The position numbers and the translations under genes were made by a program. From positions 248,001 to 312,000 of the forward strand of contig JAFUWV010000002.1 in the NCBI GenBank assembly GCA_017477325.1: a stretch of DNA of 64,000 nucleotides. Direction: 5' to 3'. The stretch is from Paludibacteraceae bacterium. Its GTDB lineage: Bacteria > Bacteroidota > Bacteroidia > Bacteroidales > Paludibacteraceae. Below are positions 56,880-64,000 of the stretch, one piece after another. The notes beneath the pieces are model-generated. The model made no database searches, had not been told where the DNA came from, and saw only the letters and a list, made by a program, of their open reading frames with translations. Positions within the stretch are counted from its first letter, which is position 1, and each line of letters opens with the position of its first letter.

Positions 56880-58025
56880 TTAGCAATAATCGTCTATACA
56901 ATCTTCTCCAGTCCATTCTTTTCCTTGTTCTAGAGTAAAATATTTTCTGCCTCCTATCTCATCAAAATAAGTTCTACGACTTAAGTGTAAAAAGTGGTTG
57001 TTATAAATAACAATTTCTGATATTGCCCAAGGTTTCACTTGGTATTCTTGTGCATGAGTTAATACCCACAAATGTTTCTTGTCGTCTGACATGGCAAAAT
57101 CTATAACCGCAGACTCTCCATATCTATTACGACAAAATATTTTATCTATCTGGAGGTTGTTGAAATAGTCTTCAATGGGTGTGTCTGTGATCTCAGTTGG
57201 ACAACATAAAAACTCTGTTGGAGTATTCCAATTTCCCTGACTCGCTGTCGGAGTTGATGATTCTCTTAAAAAGAAATATTCTTGTTCTCCTTTAATATTT
57301 GTAATGAAATCTTTTGGTTTTCCTATATCTTCCGATATCACTCCAAACATCTCCATCTCTTTTTCTCTTCTGAACTTCTGAAACTCCTCTAACGTCATAT
57401 CATCTCTATAATTCGGATTAGGTTGAGTATTCCTCAAAACCACATTTCCGAAATTACTTTCAGGAGTAGTATTCGTGTCTCTATTGATAGGTTGCTCTGC
57501 CCATTTCTTTACATTCTCATATGCAGCACGCGCCTCTTCGCTACTTACCGTTCTCATCCAGTCGATATTAGGTCCAGGCTCGTAATCATGCAAGATTGAT
57601 GGATTCTCAAGAAATTTCTCGATACTTCCACACAAAAACACTATCTTTTTAAGAGTAGCAGGATTATTCAGAGTATTCTCAAGTTTTGTACACCAACGCA
57701 GATTAGAAGGTCTGTTGTTACATCTATTAGTATCAATGTGATCCACCACCATCTCCTCACCTGCTTTATCAGGAAAAAATGCGGTAGCTACTATTCGATG
57801 GACTCTTTCTCCGCAGAAATCCATATATCCAGTGTGATTGTTCTTCTTTCCAAAAGTCCATTTATTATCGCCAGGTCTCTTCCTTCCTCCTGGAATTGCA
57901 TGTCTCAATATAGCTCCATTATCCCTGGCAGAATAATGCTCCCCCTTGTAATCACACTCCATTATTTCCACGAAATCATCATCCGGAGTTATAGTTTGAG
58001 GTTGTGAATAAGTAAAATATTTCAT
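56880..58025 (-). CDS. HNH endonuclease-domain protein
   Basis: 381 residues. The HNH motif lies at about 80-117: RIVATAFFPDK, VVDHIDTNRCNNRPSNLRWCTKLEN (Asp95-His96, Asn104, Asn108). This is the phage- and intron-type HNH pattern. Residues 120-381 have no recognised domain (WAISEIVIYNNHFLHLSRR), so it is not a plain homing endonuclease, and it shares a 54-bp upstream element with the next gene. Possible role: nuclease in a defence or mobile unit. Confidence 0.78.
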   Translation of the reverse strand: MKYFTYSQPQTITPDDDFVEIMECDYKGEHYSARDNGAILRHAIPGGRKRPGDNKWTFGKKNNHTGYMDFCGERVHRIVATAFFPDKAGEEMVVDHIDTNRCNNRPSNLRWCTKLENTLNNPATLKKIVFLCGSIEKFLENPSILHDYEPGPNIDWMRTVSSEEARAAYENVKKWAEQPINRDTNTTPESNFGNVVLRNTQPNPNYRDDMTLEEFQKFRREKEMEMFGVISEDIGKPKDFITNIKGEQEYFFLRESSTPTASQGNWNTPTEFLCCPTEITDTPIEDYFNNLQIDKIFCRNRYGESAVIDFAMSDDKKHLWVLTHAQEYQVKPWAISEIVIYNNHFLHLSRRTYFDEIGGRKYFTLEQGKEWTGEDCIDDYC

Positions 58026-58642: not shown

Positions 58643-60610
58643 TTATAATTCACTCCAATGCTTACTGAATGCAATTTCAGAGGCATCATCAAGATATTCT
58701 TGTAAGAACTTGAACGGGAAAGGATATGTCATCATTTCATTCCATCTACCAAATCCACATCTTAACATATCCATAATCTCATAAATGTCCTTTTCTATAG
58801 CAGATTCATCCTCTTTGTGAAGAACGAAGATTCTTCGAGCTCTTGGCATCCTATCCATTTTTGTACTCTTCATAATCTGCATATTCTCACTGTTTGTACC
58901 TGATATATAAGAATAACCATCACTAGCATTGCCATCCAAGCCTTCTGTCTTCCATAGATGCAAACCTATATATCCTCTTAAATACTTATGCGATTCATTT
59001 TTTCTCTTAAACAACGATAATGGAGCACCTTCGTTTACAATATCATTATACGCATCATCTATAAGATTCACATCCAGCAAGGGTATTTCATCGGTATCAA
59101 TAATCAGATATACATTTCCATTTTTCCCAAGTGCCATATAATCTCTGGTTCCCTTGATCTTTTCAGGTTCATTGTAATTTAGGTACTTATCTGCAAATTG
59201 ATCAAAAGTCAATGGTATTTGTTCGCTATAAAAACCGAAATCTTTTATTTTGATATCACCTTTTGTGTCGGTTTTTAGTGAAGCACCTATAACACATCCA
59301 TCCTGAATCTTATATCTAAAAAACTCCCAATTGTTAATAATATTGGACAATTGCAAAGGCATCTTTCTATTAATCAAGCAGTCCTTTACTAATAATTCCA
59401 TTAATATTCTACGAGCTTCAGACACTGAAAAACTATCCTCTTTCTCATTGTCATGAAATATCTTATGTTGTAACGCGATGCTCGAATGCGCTAATCTATA
59501 TAATGATTTTGTATAATGTGTTTCTGGAATAACCTCTTCCTTAGGTTCACACAATTTGATCAACAAATCATCTGCATTTTGCTTCTTATGAAAGACAAGA
59601 GAACCTTGCATTATCTCCTGGAACTGCTTTTCCATTTGAGTAGTCAAGTCTTTGGCCTGTTTACCAAACGGATTCTCAATGAAGATAGATTTGCCCTTAA
59701 GATATTCCACTATAAAACTGAGCATGTCTTTGCTGGGTTTATACTCATCATAATAGAGCACATCAAAATCAACGAATCGTATAGTCAATAAATCTTTATA
59801 CTTTTTATTCACAGACTCTACAACCTGTGAAATAGCGAATAAACGTCCATGGGAATAATCTTCAGGGTTATATGGCCAATAAGGAACTATATTATGTTTG
59901 TCTGCAAATCTTTTCTTTTGAACAAAGAGTGTCTCAAGATTCAATTCTCGATCTCTCAGATTCTTCAATACTATAGGTTTTACTGCCAACCCAGACCACC
60001 ATTGGCCATCAATATCTTTGCTCACTTGAAATACGCATGTCTTATTCCTTCTTAGTTCTTCGATGCTTTTAGGGTTCGAAAATGAAGTAGTTTTCGCAGT
60101 AAGGTTCATGAATTCGTTTACTTCTATTTTCAAACACACCAACTCTTTTCGACTAGGAGGAACTAAGAAATTCTTATCATCACATAATAAGAGGACCCCA
60201 TTATTATACATCATCTTATCAGCCTTCAATTTCCCGAGAGAATTAATTACTAATGAGGCAATGATACGTTGTTGCAACTTATTTGTATAATCTGACAGAT
60301 CATCTATCCGAGAGCGCAGTTGATCATAACTTCTAAGACTCTTTATTACTTCATTTACTCCCTCACTTTTAACCATAATAAAGAATCTAATACAAGGGTG
60401 TTGTATATCAACCCATTTTGCTCTTATACCGCAAACAGATACAAAAGGGACATCAGATAGCTGCTCGTATGCCAAATTCTTATATTCCTTATCAAAGCTA
60501 TAATATGAGACAATAGCATATTCAGAGAAGAACTTCTCCTTGTCGTAAGTTACCTCTATTTTATTCGTCGTTAGAGGCCAAGTCTTAATATCTTCAATAC
60601 TCAATTTCAC
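58643..60610 (-). CDS. Large protein of unknown function, partner of the helicase
   Basis: 655 residues, no signal peptide or membrane segment. No domain recognised. N-terminus MKLSIEDIKTWPLTTNKIEVTY; middle DLLTIRFVDFDVLYYDEYKP and KSIFIENPFGKQAKDLTTQ; C-terminus PRARRIFVLHKEDE, then a Phe-rich end (TYPFPFKFLQEYLDD). It starts 9 bp past the helicase stop, so the two form an operon. The size, lack of export signal, AT-rich composition and helicase partner suggest a defence effector or sensor. A distant relation to the MID/PIWI part of pPIWI-RE systems, which also pair with a helicase and nuclease, is possible but I cannot show it. Confidence 0.8.
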   Translation of the reverse strand: MKLSIEDIKTWPLTTNKIEVTYDKEKFFSEYAIVSYYSFDKEYKNLAYEQLSDVPFVSVCGIRAKWVDIQHPCIRFFIMVKSEGVNEVIKSLRSYDQLRSRIDDLSDYTNKLQQRIIASLVINSLGKLKADKMMYNNGVLLLCDDKNFLVPPSRKELVCLKIEVNEFMNLTAKTTSFSNPKSIEELRRNKTCVFQVSKDIDGQWWSGLAVKPIVLKNLRDRELNLETLFVQKKRFADKHNIVPYWPYNPEDYSHGRLFAISQVVESVNKKYKDLLTIRFVDFDVLYYDEYKPSKDMLSFIVEYLKGKSIFIENPFGKQAKDLTTQMEKQFQEIMQGSLVFHKKQNADDLLIKLCEPKEEVIPETHYTKSLYRLAHSSIALQHKIFHDNEKEDSFSVSEARRILMELLVKDCLINRKMPLQLSNIINNWEFFRYKIQDGCVIGASLKTDTKGDIKIKDFGFYSEQIPLTFDQFADKYLNYNEPEKIKGTRDYMALGKNGNVYLIIDTDEIPLLDVNLIDDAYNDIVNEGAPLSLFKRKNESHKYLRGYIGLHLWKTEGLDGNASDGYSYISGTNSENMQIMKSTKMDRMPRARRIFVLHKEDESAIEKDIYEIMDMLRCGFGRWNEMMTYPFPFKFLQEYLDDASEIAFSKHWSEL

Positions 60611-60619
60611 TATTAAAAA

Positions 60620-63600
60620 TTATCCATTTATAAGCTTCTTTAATGTTTCGATGCCCTTCAGTACTATATTGCCATCTTCATTTATTAGACCTCCTATTTC
60701 ATTAATTTCATCCATAAGGGGTTTGTCTATTTGAAGTATATTTACCGTGATTAACCTGCAATTAAGCCTCTCTTCCTTTCTTTGTTGTTTCTCTGATGTC
60801 GGCATATCGCCAGGTCTATCAACATGATCTAGTTTAGGGTTCATATTTTTAACATCAAATGCAAGTTTGTAACTGCCATCCGGGTTACAAATAACGAAAT
60901 CTGCCAATTCATAATCTTTCCCTTCTAAATGTTTCAGTTCCTCATCTTTACAGTTTGTATAATAGAGAACCAACGCTCGGAAGGCCTCCTCGCCTATTTC
61001 TCCAATATAGTCTGAGAAAAGTATCAGCGGATGCAGTATTAACCCCGCTTTATTCCAATTTGTAGCGAAACCATGTTTTTCGAAATGCCTACGTATAACC
61101 TCATTTTTCATCAGAATGCTTAAACGTGCTTTCTCTGGTGAAATGTCGTAAGTGGCACCTTTGCCTTTAACGCAAACTTTGCCTCGTTGTTTATCAAAAT
61201 TAAAAGTATATCCTCCATTATCACCTCTTTCCCAATCTCCATAACATTTTGTTATAAAAGTTAGATATCTATCTTCTTCGTTTAATTCATCCCAACTGGA
61301 AATAACTGGCTTTGAAATAATTGTATGTTTATAACTTTGATTCATTATTTGACTAGCCAAGATATGATAAGGTATGTCATCATTATCTCCAACATCAGTG
61401 AAGTCATCTATATCGTCATTCAAATGGGGAGTATAGTGTAGAGCTCTTTTTCTCATTCCATCCAATAGACTCTGAGCGTTATTCGCTTCATTACAGCGCT
61501 TTATTTCTTCTGCAGATACTAAAGCGTCCGTATTAACATTACGATTCAGAATATATAAGGCCAACTCTCTAAACTCTTTTGTCAATGATTTATTCAAGTT
61601 TTCCGGGTTAAAGAATGAGCTCATCGTTTCATCATATAATAGATATGTTGTATGAGGTTTATTTCTCGTACGACATAATCTTCCGACTGCTTGTTCTACT
61701 ATTGTCTGCGCCCATGCAGCTTTATCTTTTGCTATGCCAGGATCTGTTTTTTCGCTAAAGTAGAATGCATTCGAGAGAGCTTGATATAACCATCTTGCCA
61801 CATCAGATTTTGATAGACATCCTCTCTCTAATAGCATCATCAAAACTAGCATCGCATTATATAAACTCTTTTCATAGGTTAATTCATAGCCATCTTCATT
61901 CATCATGAGATAGCCTGTTGGTGATTGCAGATAAACTGCATCCCAGTCCTTTTTTAACCGTTCATTTTCTTCTTCCCAATTATCGCCAGAGATATAATCA
62001 AGGTCCTCAGGTATTTCATATTGCATATTGGTTCCCGCCTTGAAACTCCCATATGCAGAAACTAGCATAATTTTAGCATCTTTATTCTTGCTTAGATCTG
62101 TGAGAATTTCAGTTTCTACCTCCTCCCAATCTTTTGAAATACGAATATGATCATTAGTCCAATCTTCTGGAAGTGCTCCTTCTAATTTTGAAGGCATATT
62201 TTTATATGTGCCATCAATAAGACAACTTAAAGTATAGATTTGAATCTTATCTTTATCGCCTGTGCGATTTTGGAAATAAATCATACTACGTAAATCATCG
62301 TGAGAGATAAACCAGTGATACGATTCAACAAATTGGAAAAGGCGATATAATTGGAAAAATACATTCTCTAAGGTACTGTCATATTTCTTCAATTGTCGTA
62401 TTGTAATCTTAAACCACTCTTCATCCAGACCTTCTTCTCGAGCCTCTTTTGAAAACATTTCTTTATACTTAAACGGTAGCTCCAGATGATTTTCTCTTTT
62501 ATCTGTATATTCAAAATGTTCAATTGGAACGACTTCTATTCTATGTTCTTGAGGATATGTTTTTTCAACCAACTCATCAAATGTTTCTCTATCCTCTTTT
62601 GATAATTCATGAACTTTATTGTTCATTATTTGCTTAAGATAAACAATGTCAAAATTGCTGACTATAGATTTGTTTGATGCTGTGGCAGAACATAAAACTA
62701 TAGCAGTATTGTCGAAATGAGTGAGATTAAGTAATACTTTTTCGGGTGTGTTTGTAATCTCACGGCTAGACAATCTCACGCGATGTTGATTGTCTTTCTC
62801 ATCAATTTCTTCTTGAAAGAATTGCACTCCTTGAGAATAAACAGAATAGTCAGGGAGTTTTATTGGCTTTTCATCTTTTGTTTCAATAAAGTTTTTCCTG
62901 TTTGTCATGAACTCCAACTGTTGTTGCTCAAAATGATATTCTGAAGCGGACTCAAATCTGGAGAAGCATGTGTGAATTTCTCTTTCTAAAGTTGGATATC
63001 CAATATAACTTTGACCACCACCATTATTTCTTATATTTGCAATTTCGTCATCAAATTTTGCGCGGCTTGTCTCAAGAGCCTTTGTTATTACATTCCTAAA
63101 TTGTGATTTTACAGAAGTAATATTTCTAGTTATAAGAGTCAAAAATTCATCTAGAGAAATAACAACAGAATAAATGTTAAATAATGAATCTTTATTTTTG
63201 CTATGTACTAAAGTGAAATGTCTATTACCATTTTTATAACATACATACGAATTTGTATTATCACCACTCTGTGATATATTCAATTTTGTGGCTCCAGAGA
63301 AAAATACGCCTCTTCTGAAGTTTTCAATCTCTTCCGGGTTATCAATAAAAATACTTTTATAAGGTTTGATTTCGCCAAATAGTTTCTTCCAGTTGTTATT
63401 TATTGCTGTTTGTGCTTTATTTATGCCATCTTCTAACAGCGTTCCATAATACGAATTTGATGTATGATCTGGGCTCTCAAGAAGTGTCTTATATTGCAAG
63501 AACCCATTATATCCTTTTGCAAATCGTTTATTGCCATAAGCACTTTCAATTGATTGATCTATGATTGCATTTCTCATCGCAATTGCAGCCTGATCTGATT

Positions 63601-64000
63601 CATCAAATAAAATTAGTGTTCTCTCCTTTTTCTTTATATTGTTAAAATCAGTGATGTTAATTCTATCGTCAATGATAGGATCTATACCATACATTGCCTT
63701 ATGAACGGTCATAAGGAGAACCTTTTTACTTTTGTAGTTAACTTGCGGATAGACTTCTTGAAGATGAGGAAAGAGATTGTTTATTTTCCCTATGGAAACT
63801 TTCTTACATTGTTTTGTTTTTTCTAAATGATTTTTGAAGTTGTCAAAAAATGTTCGAACAGCATTACGAAGAGATGCCTCGTTTTCTTCTATCTGTTGAC
63901 GAATAAAATCATTATTGTTTGATTCGTAGGTTTTTATCAACCCTGCCAATCCTTCATAGATCTTCTTAACCCGACCATAACTATATTTCAAATCAGTAAT
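60620..64000 (-). CDS. Large superfamily 2-type helicase with C-terminal nuclease, 5' end missing
   Basis: The frame runs off the window edge (ITD precedes the first possible start, a TTG at 63991), so the N-terminus with Walker A is outside. Visible, numbered from that TTG: motif II-like LILFDESD (127-133); motif III SAT (435-437); SAYGSFKAGTNMQY (645-658), a motif V-like segment; QAVGRLCRTRN (767-777), a clear motif VI; and near the end ADFVICN...LAFDVKN (Asp1031, Asp1046, Lys1048), a PD-(D/E)xK-like nuclease site. 1123+ residues in all. This mixture (helicase plus nuclease) is typical of anti-phage systems, but I do not recognise a named one. Confidence 0.82.
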   Translation of the reverse strand: MTDLKYSYGRVKKIYEGLAGLIKTYESNNNDFIRQQIEENEASLRNAVRTFFDNFKNHLEKTKQCKKVSIGKINNLFPHLQEVYPQVNYKSKKVLLMTVHKAMYGIDPIIDDRINITDFNNIKKKERTLILFDESDQAAIAMRNAIIDQSIESAYGNKRFAKGYNGFLQYKTLLESPDHTSNSYYGTLLEDGINKAQTAINNNWKKLFGEIKPYKSIFIDNPEEIENFRRGVFFSGATKLNISQSGDNTNSYVCYKNGNRHFTLVHSKNKDSLFNIYSVVISLDEFLTLITRNITSVKSQFRNVITKALETSRAKFDDEIANIRNNGGGQSYIGYPTLEREIHTCFSRFESASEYHFEQQQLEFMTNRKNFIETKDEKPIKLPDYSVYSQGVQFFQEEIDEKDNQHRVRLSSREITNTPEKVLLNLTHFDNTAIVLCSATASNKSIVSNFDIVYLKQIMNNKVHELSKEDRETFDELVEKTYPQEHRIEVVPIEHFEYTDKRENHLELPFKYKEMFSKEAREEGLDEEWFKITIRQLKKYDSTLENVFFQLYRLFQFVESYHWFISHDDLRSMIYFQNRTGDKDKIQIYTLSCLIDGTYKNMPSKLEGALPEDWTNDHIRISKDWEEVETEILTDLSKNKDAKIMLVSAYGSFKAGTNMQYEIPEDLDYISGDNWEEENERLKKDWDAVYLQSPTGYLMMNEDGYELTYEKSLYNAMLVLMMLLERGCLSKSDVARWLYQALSNAFYFSEKTDPGIAKDKAAWAQTIVEQAVGRLCRTRNKPHTTYLLYDETMSSFFNPENLNKSLTKEFRELALYILNRNVNTDALVSAEEIKRCNEANNAQSLLDGMRKRALHYTPHLNDDIDDFTDVGDNDDIPYHILASQIMNQSYKHTIISKPVISSWDELNEEDRYLTFITKCYGDWERGDNGGYTFNFDKQRGKVCVKGKGATYDISPEKARLSILMKNEVIRRHFEKHGFATNWNKAGLILHPLILFSDYIGEIGEEAFRALVLYYTNCKDEELKHLEGKDYELADFVICNPDGSYKLAFDVKNMNPKLDHVDRPGDMPTSEKQQRKEERLNCRLITVNILQIDKPLMDEINEIGGLINEDGNIVLKGIETLKKLING

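Follow-up and report, generated by a model that had tools for sequence, protein, structure and literature searches.

Known DdmDE and ApsAB systems and the locus studied here

The closest described system is DdmDE. DdmE, an inactive Argonaute, locates plasmids by means of DNA guides and then brings in DdmD. DdmD is an autoinhibited dimer; once loaded on the non-target strand, it translocates and cuts (excerpt of PMC12409362). The mechanism is also covered in an excerpt of PMC12904381, in whose text the two protein names are swapped. The related system ApsAB, from E. coli ST38, is antiplasmid and likewise pairs a helicase-nuclease with an Argonaute-like partner (excerpt of PMC11096173). Here we describe two genes from a Paludibacteraceae bacterium (GCA_017477325.1, contig JAFUWV010000002.1, here C2). 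The window, which is the whole 64,000-nucleotide stretch analyzed, is C2:248001-312000 of a 1.89-Mb assembly that is 71% complete, and flanking DNA was read from C2:302000-321900. A two-gene minus-strand operon lies at the end of the window. It is very probably a DdmDE plasmid-defense operon of a divergent Bacteroidales clade. Its open reading frames (ORFs), named ORF A and ORF B, and their parts are as follows.

58643..60610, minus strand: ddmE-like gene (ORF A), 655 aa, predicted Argonaute fold (AlphaFold2 model, PDB fold search, profile-profile match).
60620..64000, minus strand: ddmD-like gene (ORF B), window part, 1126 of 1252 residues; predicted superfamily 2 (SF2) helicase with a C-terminal PD-(D/E)XK nuclease.
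60848..60991, minus strand: nuclease core of the ddmD-like gene, E1130 to K1177 (E1130...D1160...D1175-V-K1177).
60611..60619, minus strand: ddmD/ddmE junction, 9 bp; between -4 and +15 bp at the other 19 loci having the junction.

The guanine-plus-cytosine (GC) content is 31 to 36% at 58 to 64 kb and 53 to 58% at 48 to 54 kb. An earlier note on this DNA, made from the sequence letters, had described two AT-rich genes 9 bp apart, and the ORF coordinates and composition agree with it. The window edge cuts ORF B short at its 5' end. The 5' end that the note had marked as missing was recovered from the flanking DNA: the gene starts 378 bp further on, at window coordinate 64378, and the whole gene (L002:6621-10379) contains 1252 codons from a TTG. 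Judged by its relatives, an ATG at codon 3 is a better start. The 126 residues beyond the window hold the Walker A motif, GGGKS (34-38).

ORF B

The PADLOC model for DdmD matched ORF B with an E value of 1.4e-25. No other PADLOC family, including those of DISARM, Hachiman, Druantia, BREX, and Zorya, matched ORF A or ORF B at E<=1. The earlier note had left the pair unassigned, as an undescribed or poorly described system. It matches the named system DdmDE, which was missing from the candidates considered there. ORF B also matched V. cholerae DdmD among the PDB sequences (E=1.1e-21), with residues 399-1011 of the window part on residues 508-1069. A profile of 20 relatives matched the DdmD proteins of V. 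cholerae (6.8e-29) and L. casei (5.3e-18). All 20 rows of this alignment are distinct; L038, L039, and L040, which repeat L021, L030, and L024, were excluded.

Every one of the 20 DdmD-like rows matched the PADLOC DdmD model (best E=6.8e-26). Weak extra matches were to typeIV_DinG (2/20 rows, best E=4.6e-4) and to a CARF model (1/20). The typeIV_DinG matches are the evidence in favor of reading the pair as a pPIWI-RE/DinG or other Argonaute-helicase module. We consider that reading extremely improbable, given the DdmD matches in all rows, the DdmE proteins that head the fold matches of ORF A (see below), and the lack of any pPIWI-RE model among the Pfam matches of ORF A at E<=1.

ORF B encodes helicase motifs II (DESD, 259-262), III (SAT, 564-566), V-like (774-784), and VI (QAVGR, 896-900). 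The motif residues checked (GGGKS, DESD, SAT, FKAG.N, and QA[VI]GR) are kept in 20/20 rows except at three positions: V898 is I in four rows, S774 is T in one, and V1176 is I in one. The nuclease residues E1130, D1160, D1175, and K1177 are kept in all 20. The motifs are not chance occurrences, because their residues are kept across the 20 rows. The helicase motifs and the C-terminal D...DxK site named in the earlier note were thus confirmed, with few substitutions. ORF B is identified as DdmD by sequence, profile, and motifs.

ORF A

Alone, ORF A had no convincing match in Pfam, PADLOC, or the PDB sequences, and the phage collection contained no match to it. Its weak matches to RecO_N_2 (E=0.056), MrpR_N_CB (0.27), and NSF-N (0.49) were judged to be chance. 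Matches in its family to AbiEi (2/22 rows, best 0.0079) and JetC3 (1/22, 0.005) were judged likewise. The family alignment contains 22 rows, 19 of them distinct (L004, L005, and L006 repeat L026, L013, and L014), and its profile retrieved nothing convincing among the PDB sequences.

The AlphaFold2 model of ORF A had a predicted local distance difference test score (pLDDT) of 73.7 and a predicted template modeling score of 0.76. It matched 31 PDB folds at E<=1e-3. Ranks 1 to 6 were all DdmE from L. casei and V. cholerae (E 5.5e-23 to 2.4e-11, identity 12-13%). The entries at ranks 7 to 31 carry Argonaute or PIWI titles, and one of these is a complex with AGO2 in it. The earlier note had found no recognizable domain in this protein. 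That holds for the sequence libraries; it does not hold for the predicted fold, which is that of DdmE and Argonaute.

Plasmid proteins bridged the sequence gap. ORF B matched two plasmid records, with E values of 1e-11 and 2e-7. DdmD-like genes were retrieved from plasmids of Nostoc, L. intestinalis, Persicobacter (Bacteroidota), and Cetobacterium, and each is directly followed by a gene annotated as "hypothetical protein". Motifs II, III, V (G.N), and VI (Q..GR) and the nuclease residues align in the four DdmD-like plasmid proteins. Motif I aligns in three of them and is unaligned in that of L. intestinalis. With default filters, the 20-row DdmD profile found the Nostoc and L. intestinalis proteins; E values for this profile against the bridge DdmD-like proteins were computed for 7 sequences.

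The partner proteins link ORF A to known DdmE. L. casei DdmE was matched by the Nostoc partner at 7.6e-13 and by the L. intestinalis partner at 3.4e-4. Aligned by hhalign to the four partners, the 22-row ORF A family gave a probability of 96.7 and P=4.5e-10 over 475 columns; in the one control made, the DdmD family against the same partners gave P=0.61. On their own, the four partners matched the DdmE proteins of V. cholerae (E=0.0026) and L. casei (1.1e-15). When six of the 22 ORF A rows were added, these values became 1.3e-9 and 2.2e-20, and the mixed profile aligned on residues 10-643 of 646 of L. casei DdmE. A further match of the mixed profile, to a disulfide reductase at 0.044, was judged to be chance. 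By predicted fold and by this profile bridge, ORF A is assigned as an Argonaute-fold DdmE.

The four plasmids (L032, L033, L035, and L036) thus each carry a DdmD-like gene with an unannotated DdmE-like partner. That plasmids themselves carry such pairs suggests plasmid-against-plasmid competition. In addition, the L. delbrueckii plasmid pLD01 (L041:1992-4732) contains a DdmD-like C-terminal piece that covers 12% of the query (E=1e-6). It lies at the record's end, with several short hypothetical genes around it.

Linkage and distribution

Genome contigs (one genome per species, 84,980 species) were scanned for two conserved ORF A peptides, a pattern scan that is biased toward close relatives. 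It gave 95 candidate stretches and from these 23 loci, or 24 with the window. By title, 22 of the 23 belong to Bacteroidales, named either directly or through one of its families or genera; L026 is given only as Bacteroidia. Ruminant stomach or horse feces is named in 12 of the 23 titles. One locus is from a cultured type-collection strain, Xylanibacter brevis ATCC 19188.

In all 20 loci that hold the ddmE 5' end, ddmD is the gene directly before ddmE, with both on one strand and -4 to +15 bp between them. Both genes are whole in 19 of these, and in L027 the contig ends inside ddmE. L012 and L025 begin at a contig edge that falls within ddmE. L025 and L027 come from the same metagenome-assembled genome (MAG), and their ddmE pieces may be the two parts of a single gene. 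Two loci contain 3' pieces of ddmE.

L028:8001-8669: isolated 3' ddmE piece, residues 433-655.
L029:8001-8306: isolated 3' ddmE piece, residues 554-655.

The MAG of L029 also has a complete pair (L022). We read both pieces as probable decayed copies of ddmE. Only ddmD and ddmE were present in more than 3 of the 24 loci, and seven other gene families were present in exactly 3. This count used 282 non-overlapping ORFs of at least 100 aa, and since flank lengths vary, rarer links may be missed. The protein distances of DdmD and DdmE are correlated (r=0.85, Mantel p=1e-4, n=19), a result for which shared ancestry of linked genes is a sufficient explanation. The earlier note had proposed a two-gene defense-type module of a helicase-nuclease and its partner, and this was upheld. 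It had also taken homologues with separated genes as a sign against the module. All 20 loci with the ddmE 5' end keep the genes linked, and the two loci with ddmE scraps lack ddmD.

Occurrence is patchy. Among 358 genomes from the family there were 4 with the pair, and among 393 from the order also 4, with the source genome counted in both. Beyond the source genome, no match was found with the PADLOC DdmD model in 395 genomes of the class or with the 20-row DdmD profile in 395 genomes of the phylum. A search with ORF B among 21 relatives retrieved the source genome only. The patchiness, the low GC content, and the ddmE scraps fit horizontal spread.

Conserved residues of ORF A

Y366, R372, Q381, H382, and K409 are kept across all 22 ORF A rows. 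When the four bridge proteins are included, Q381, K409, P630, K634, and E638 are invariant or nearly so (Q381 and K409 in at least 9/10). We read Q381, K409, and their neighbors as a putative MID-like 5'-end pocket, after the Q...K pattern of Argonautes.

Position 444, which follows an invariant G-A, is Asp in 0/22 rows. We tentatively take it to be the place of the first catalytic Asp, by comparison with the human AGO2 motif IGADV. Slicing by ORF A appears unlikely because Asp is absent there in all 22 rows.

The PIWI part of ORF A also contains an acidic run, with D505 in 21/22 rows, T506 in 22/22, D507 in 21/22, and E508 in 22/22. Among the bridge proteins, only that of Cetobacterium has a similar DTE. 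The clade could be a functionally distinct DdmDE subtype, in which the acidic run would hold a metal or license DdmD in some other way, and its targets would perhaps be integrative and conjugative elements of gut Bacteroidales. We regard this as a speculation with little chance of being right.

Comparison with described systems

(a) V. cholerae DdmDE. This system (PDB 8u0u, 8u0j, 8u3k, and 9ezy) has the same D-then-E order, the same SF2 helicase with a PD-(D/E)XK nuclease, and an Argonaute-fold partner. Three stretches of its DdmE, of the types R-x8-Q, ELLIK, and PYPFK..RE, can be aligned with the ORF A family, the last of them, at the C terminus, with an independent E value as poor as 25. It differs in that ORF A has no detectable pairwise similarity to its DdmE. 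The likeness of the helicases lies mainly in residues 541-1139.

(b) L. casei DdmDE. The DdmE of this system (PDB 9iw3, 9ix4, and 9ixm) is the best fold match of ORF A (E=5.5e-23), and the mixed profile matches it nearly end to end. Identity over the structural alignment is 12%, and the deposited chain contains 715 residues compared with 655. It has the QH, with ELCIK for ELLVK and PYPVK for PFPFK. The C terminus of ORF A, PFPFKFL.E, resembles PYPVKYLRE from L. casei and PYPFKHLRE from V. cholerae.

(c) ApsAB. If the pair were an ApsAB-type system, it would belong to this related family and not to DdmDE proper. ORF B does have its helicase and nuclease motifs in the same order as ApsAB, with like helicase and D...DVK motifs. 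However, the DdmD profile recognizes ORF B, and the best fold of ORF A is DdmE, in a fold set that holds no ApsB structure. Typical PIWI and PAZ domains are reported to be missing from ApsB, and ApsA is reported to be longer, with its nuclease Lys at 1435 (excerpt of PMC11096173). The MID motif given for ApsB in the same excerpt, Y-x3-K...QG...K, is absent from the 22 ORF A rows: in the Y366 register the fourth residue on is L, M, or H, and Q381 is followed by H. We consider ApsAB very unlikely. By fold and profile, in comparisons made with known DdmD and DdmE, the pair falls on the DdmDE side.

Several observations weigh against DdmDE. Alone, ORF A matches no DdmE by sequence in PADLOC or the PDB. 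The PADLOC DdmE model (PDLC04131, 687 positions, 2023 version) matches 0/22 rows of its family; this model was silent in the source genome and likewise in 14 control genomes. The six DdmE folds align with template modeling scores (by query) of 0.46-0.62 and root mean square deviations of 7.8-9.5 A, and 120/655 residues of ORF A have a pLDDT below 50. Single-sequence hhalign of ORF A with each bridge protein gives weak values (P 0.0039 to 0.017). The bridge alignment is highly diverged in its own right, with 18-22% identity. Of two bridge DdmD-like proteins scanned, the PADLOC DdmD model matched that of Nostoc and not that of L. intestinalis. The 20-row DdmD profile finds Persicobacter (3e-12) only with filters off, and its match to Cetobacterium (4.9e-4) has a bias above its score and is doubtful. 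At the R372 column, V. cholerae DdmE has R and L. casei DdmE has E. The ddmE pieces of L028 and L029 stand without ddmD (tblastn E<=10). No WYL gene, which V. cholerae has upstream of the pair, was found upstream in the window's genome, where the upstream ORFs match no family convincingly. Finally, DdmE is said to lack a MID-like motif, which conflicts with the pocket proposed above (excerpt of PMC11096173).

Proposed mechanism

We still favor a DdmDE operon. The identity of its genes rests on sequence, profile, and predicted fold, and the motifs and the linkage were seen directly. From the characterized DdmDE we infer guide use, recruitment, autoinhibition, and plasmid loss. DdmE (655 aa) would carry a short nucleic-acid guide and pair it with invading plasmid DNA without cutting. 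As a probably slicing-dead Argonaute, it would then recruit DdmD. Released from its autoinhibited state, DdmD would load on the displaced strand, its SF2 motor would translocate, and its C-terminal PD-(D/E)XK nuclease would cut the plasmid. The earlier note had likened the pair to anti-phage defenses. Because the pair matches DdmDE, the expected targets are plasmids rather than primarily phage.

Neighboring genes

The excerpt of PMC12409362 places a WYL gene before ddmDE in V. cholerae. L008 encodes a WYL protein 112 bp before ddmD, and L017 encodes one farther off. Two ORFs upstream of ddmD in the source genome, of 170 aa and 121 aa, were rejected as members of the operon, being unmatched in the other loci compared (blastp E<=1e-3). 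Neither belongs to a convincing family; the 121-aa ORF matched QhpR at 0.017. Outside the window, about 6.5 to 8 kb upstream of ddmD (L002:16928-18623), is an AbiE-like toxin-antitoxin pair. One member is a DUF6088 protein; the other is an AbiEii-like gene divided between two overlapping frames. Window positions 56880-58025, downstream of ddmE and on its strand, encode an HNH_3 protein, in low-GC DNA with small ORFs around it.

Other loci also have genes of interest beside the pair. An SLFN-type helicase was scanned in L009, and its family is also present in L011 and L021. HNH_4 and methyltransferase-HIT proteins were scanned in L013, and their families are also present in L024 and L026. Defense-type neighbors include RloB (L013), Mrr (L014), a YhcG nuclease (L011), and Vsr (L021). 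Such general defense genes near some loci are what might be expected if this DdmDE mainly targeted phage or integrative-conjugative DNA and not small plasmids, a sub-case that is compatible with the DdmDE assignment. This sub-case has a small but real chance of being correct. Against it, characterized DdmDE acts primarily on small plasmids (excerpt of PMC12409362), and ApsAB was inactive against eight phages (excerpt of PMC11096173).

Novelty and significance

This kind of system is already known. What is new here is a divergent clade whose DdmE escapes the 2023 PADLOC model. No report of DdmDE from Bacteroidales was found in the literature searched; the primary DdmDE papers and their supplements lay outside that search, so an earlier mention is possible. 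The string "Bacteroid" is absent from the main text of the ApsAB paper (PMC11096173), and Bacteroides in an excerpt of PMC11411939 relates to TgvAB.

With these loci, DdmDE gains a coherent gut and rumen Bacteroidales clade. Surveys that require both genes would undercount it, because the DdmE model of the 2023 PADLOC version misses the clade. The diverged set of DdmE proteins also helps to narrow down the residues that stay constant (Q381, K409, P630, K634, and E638).

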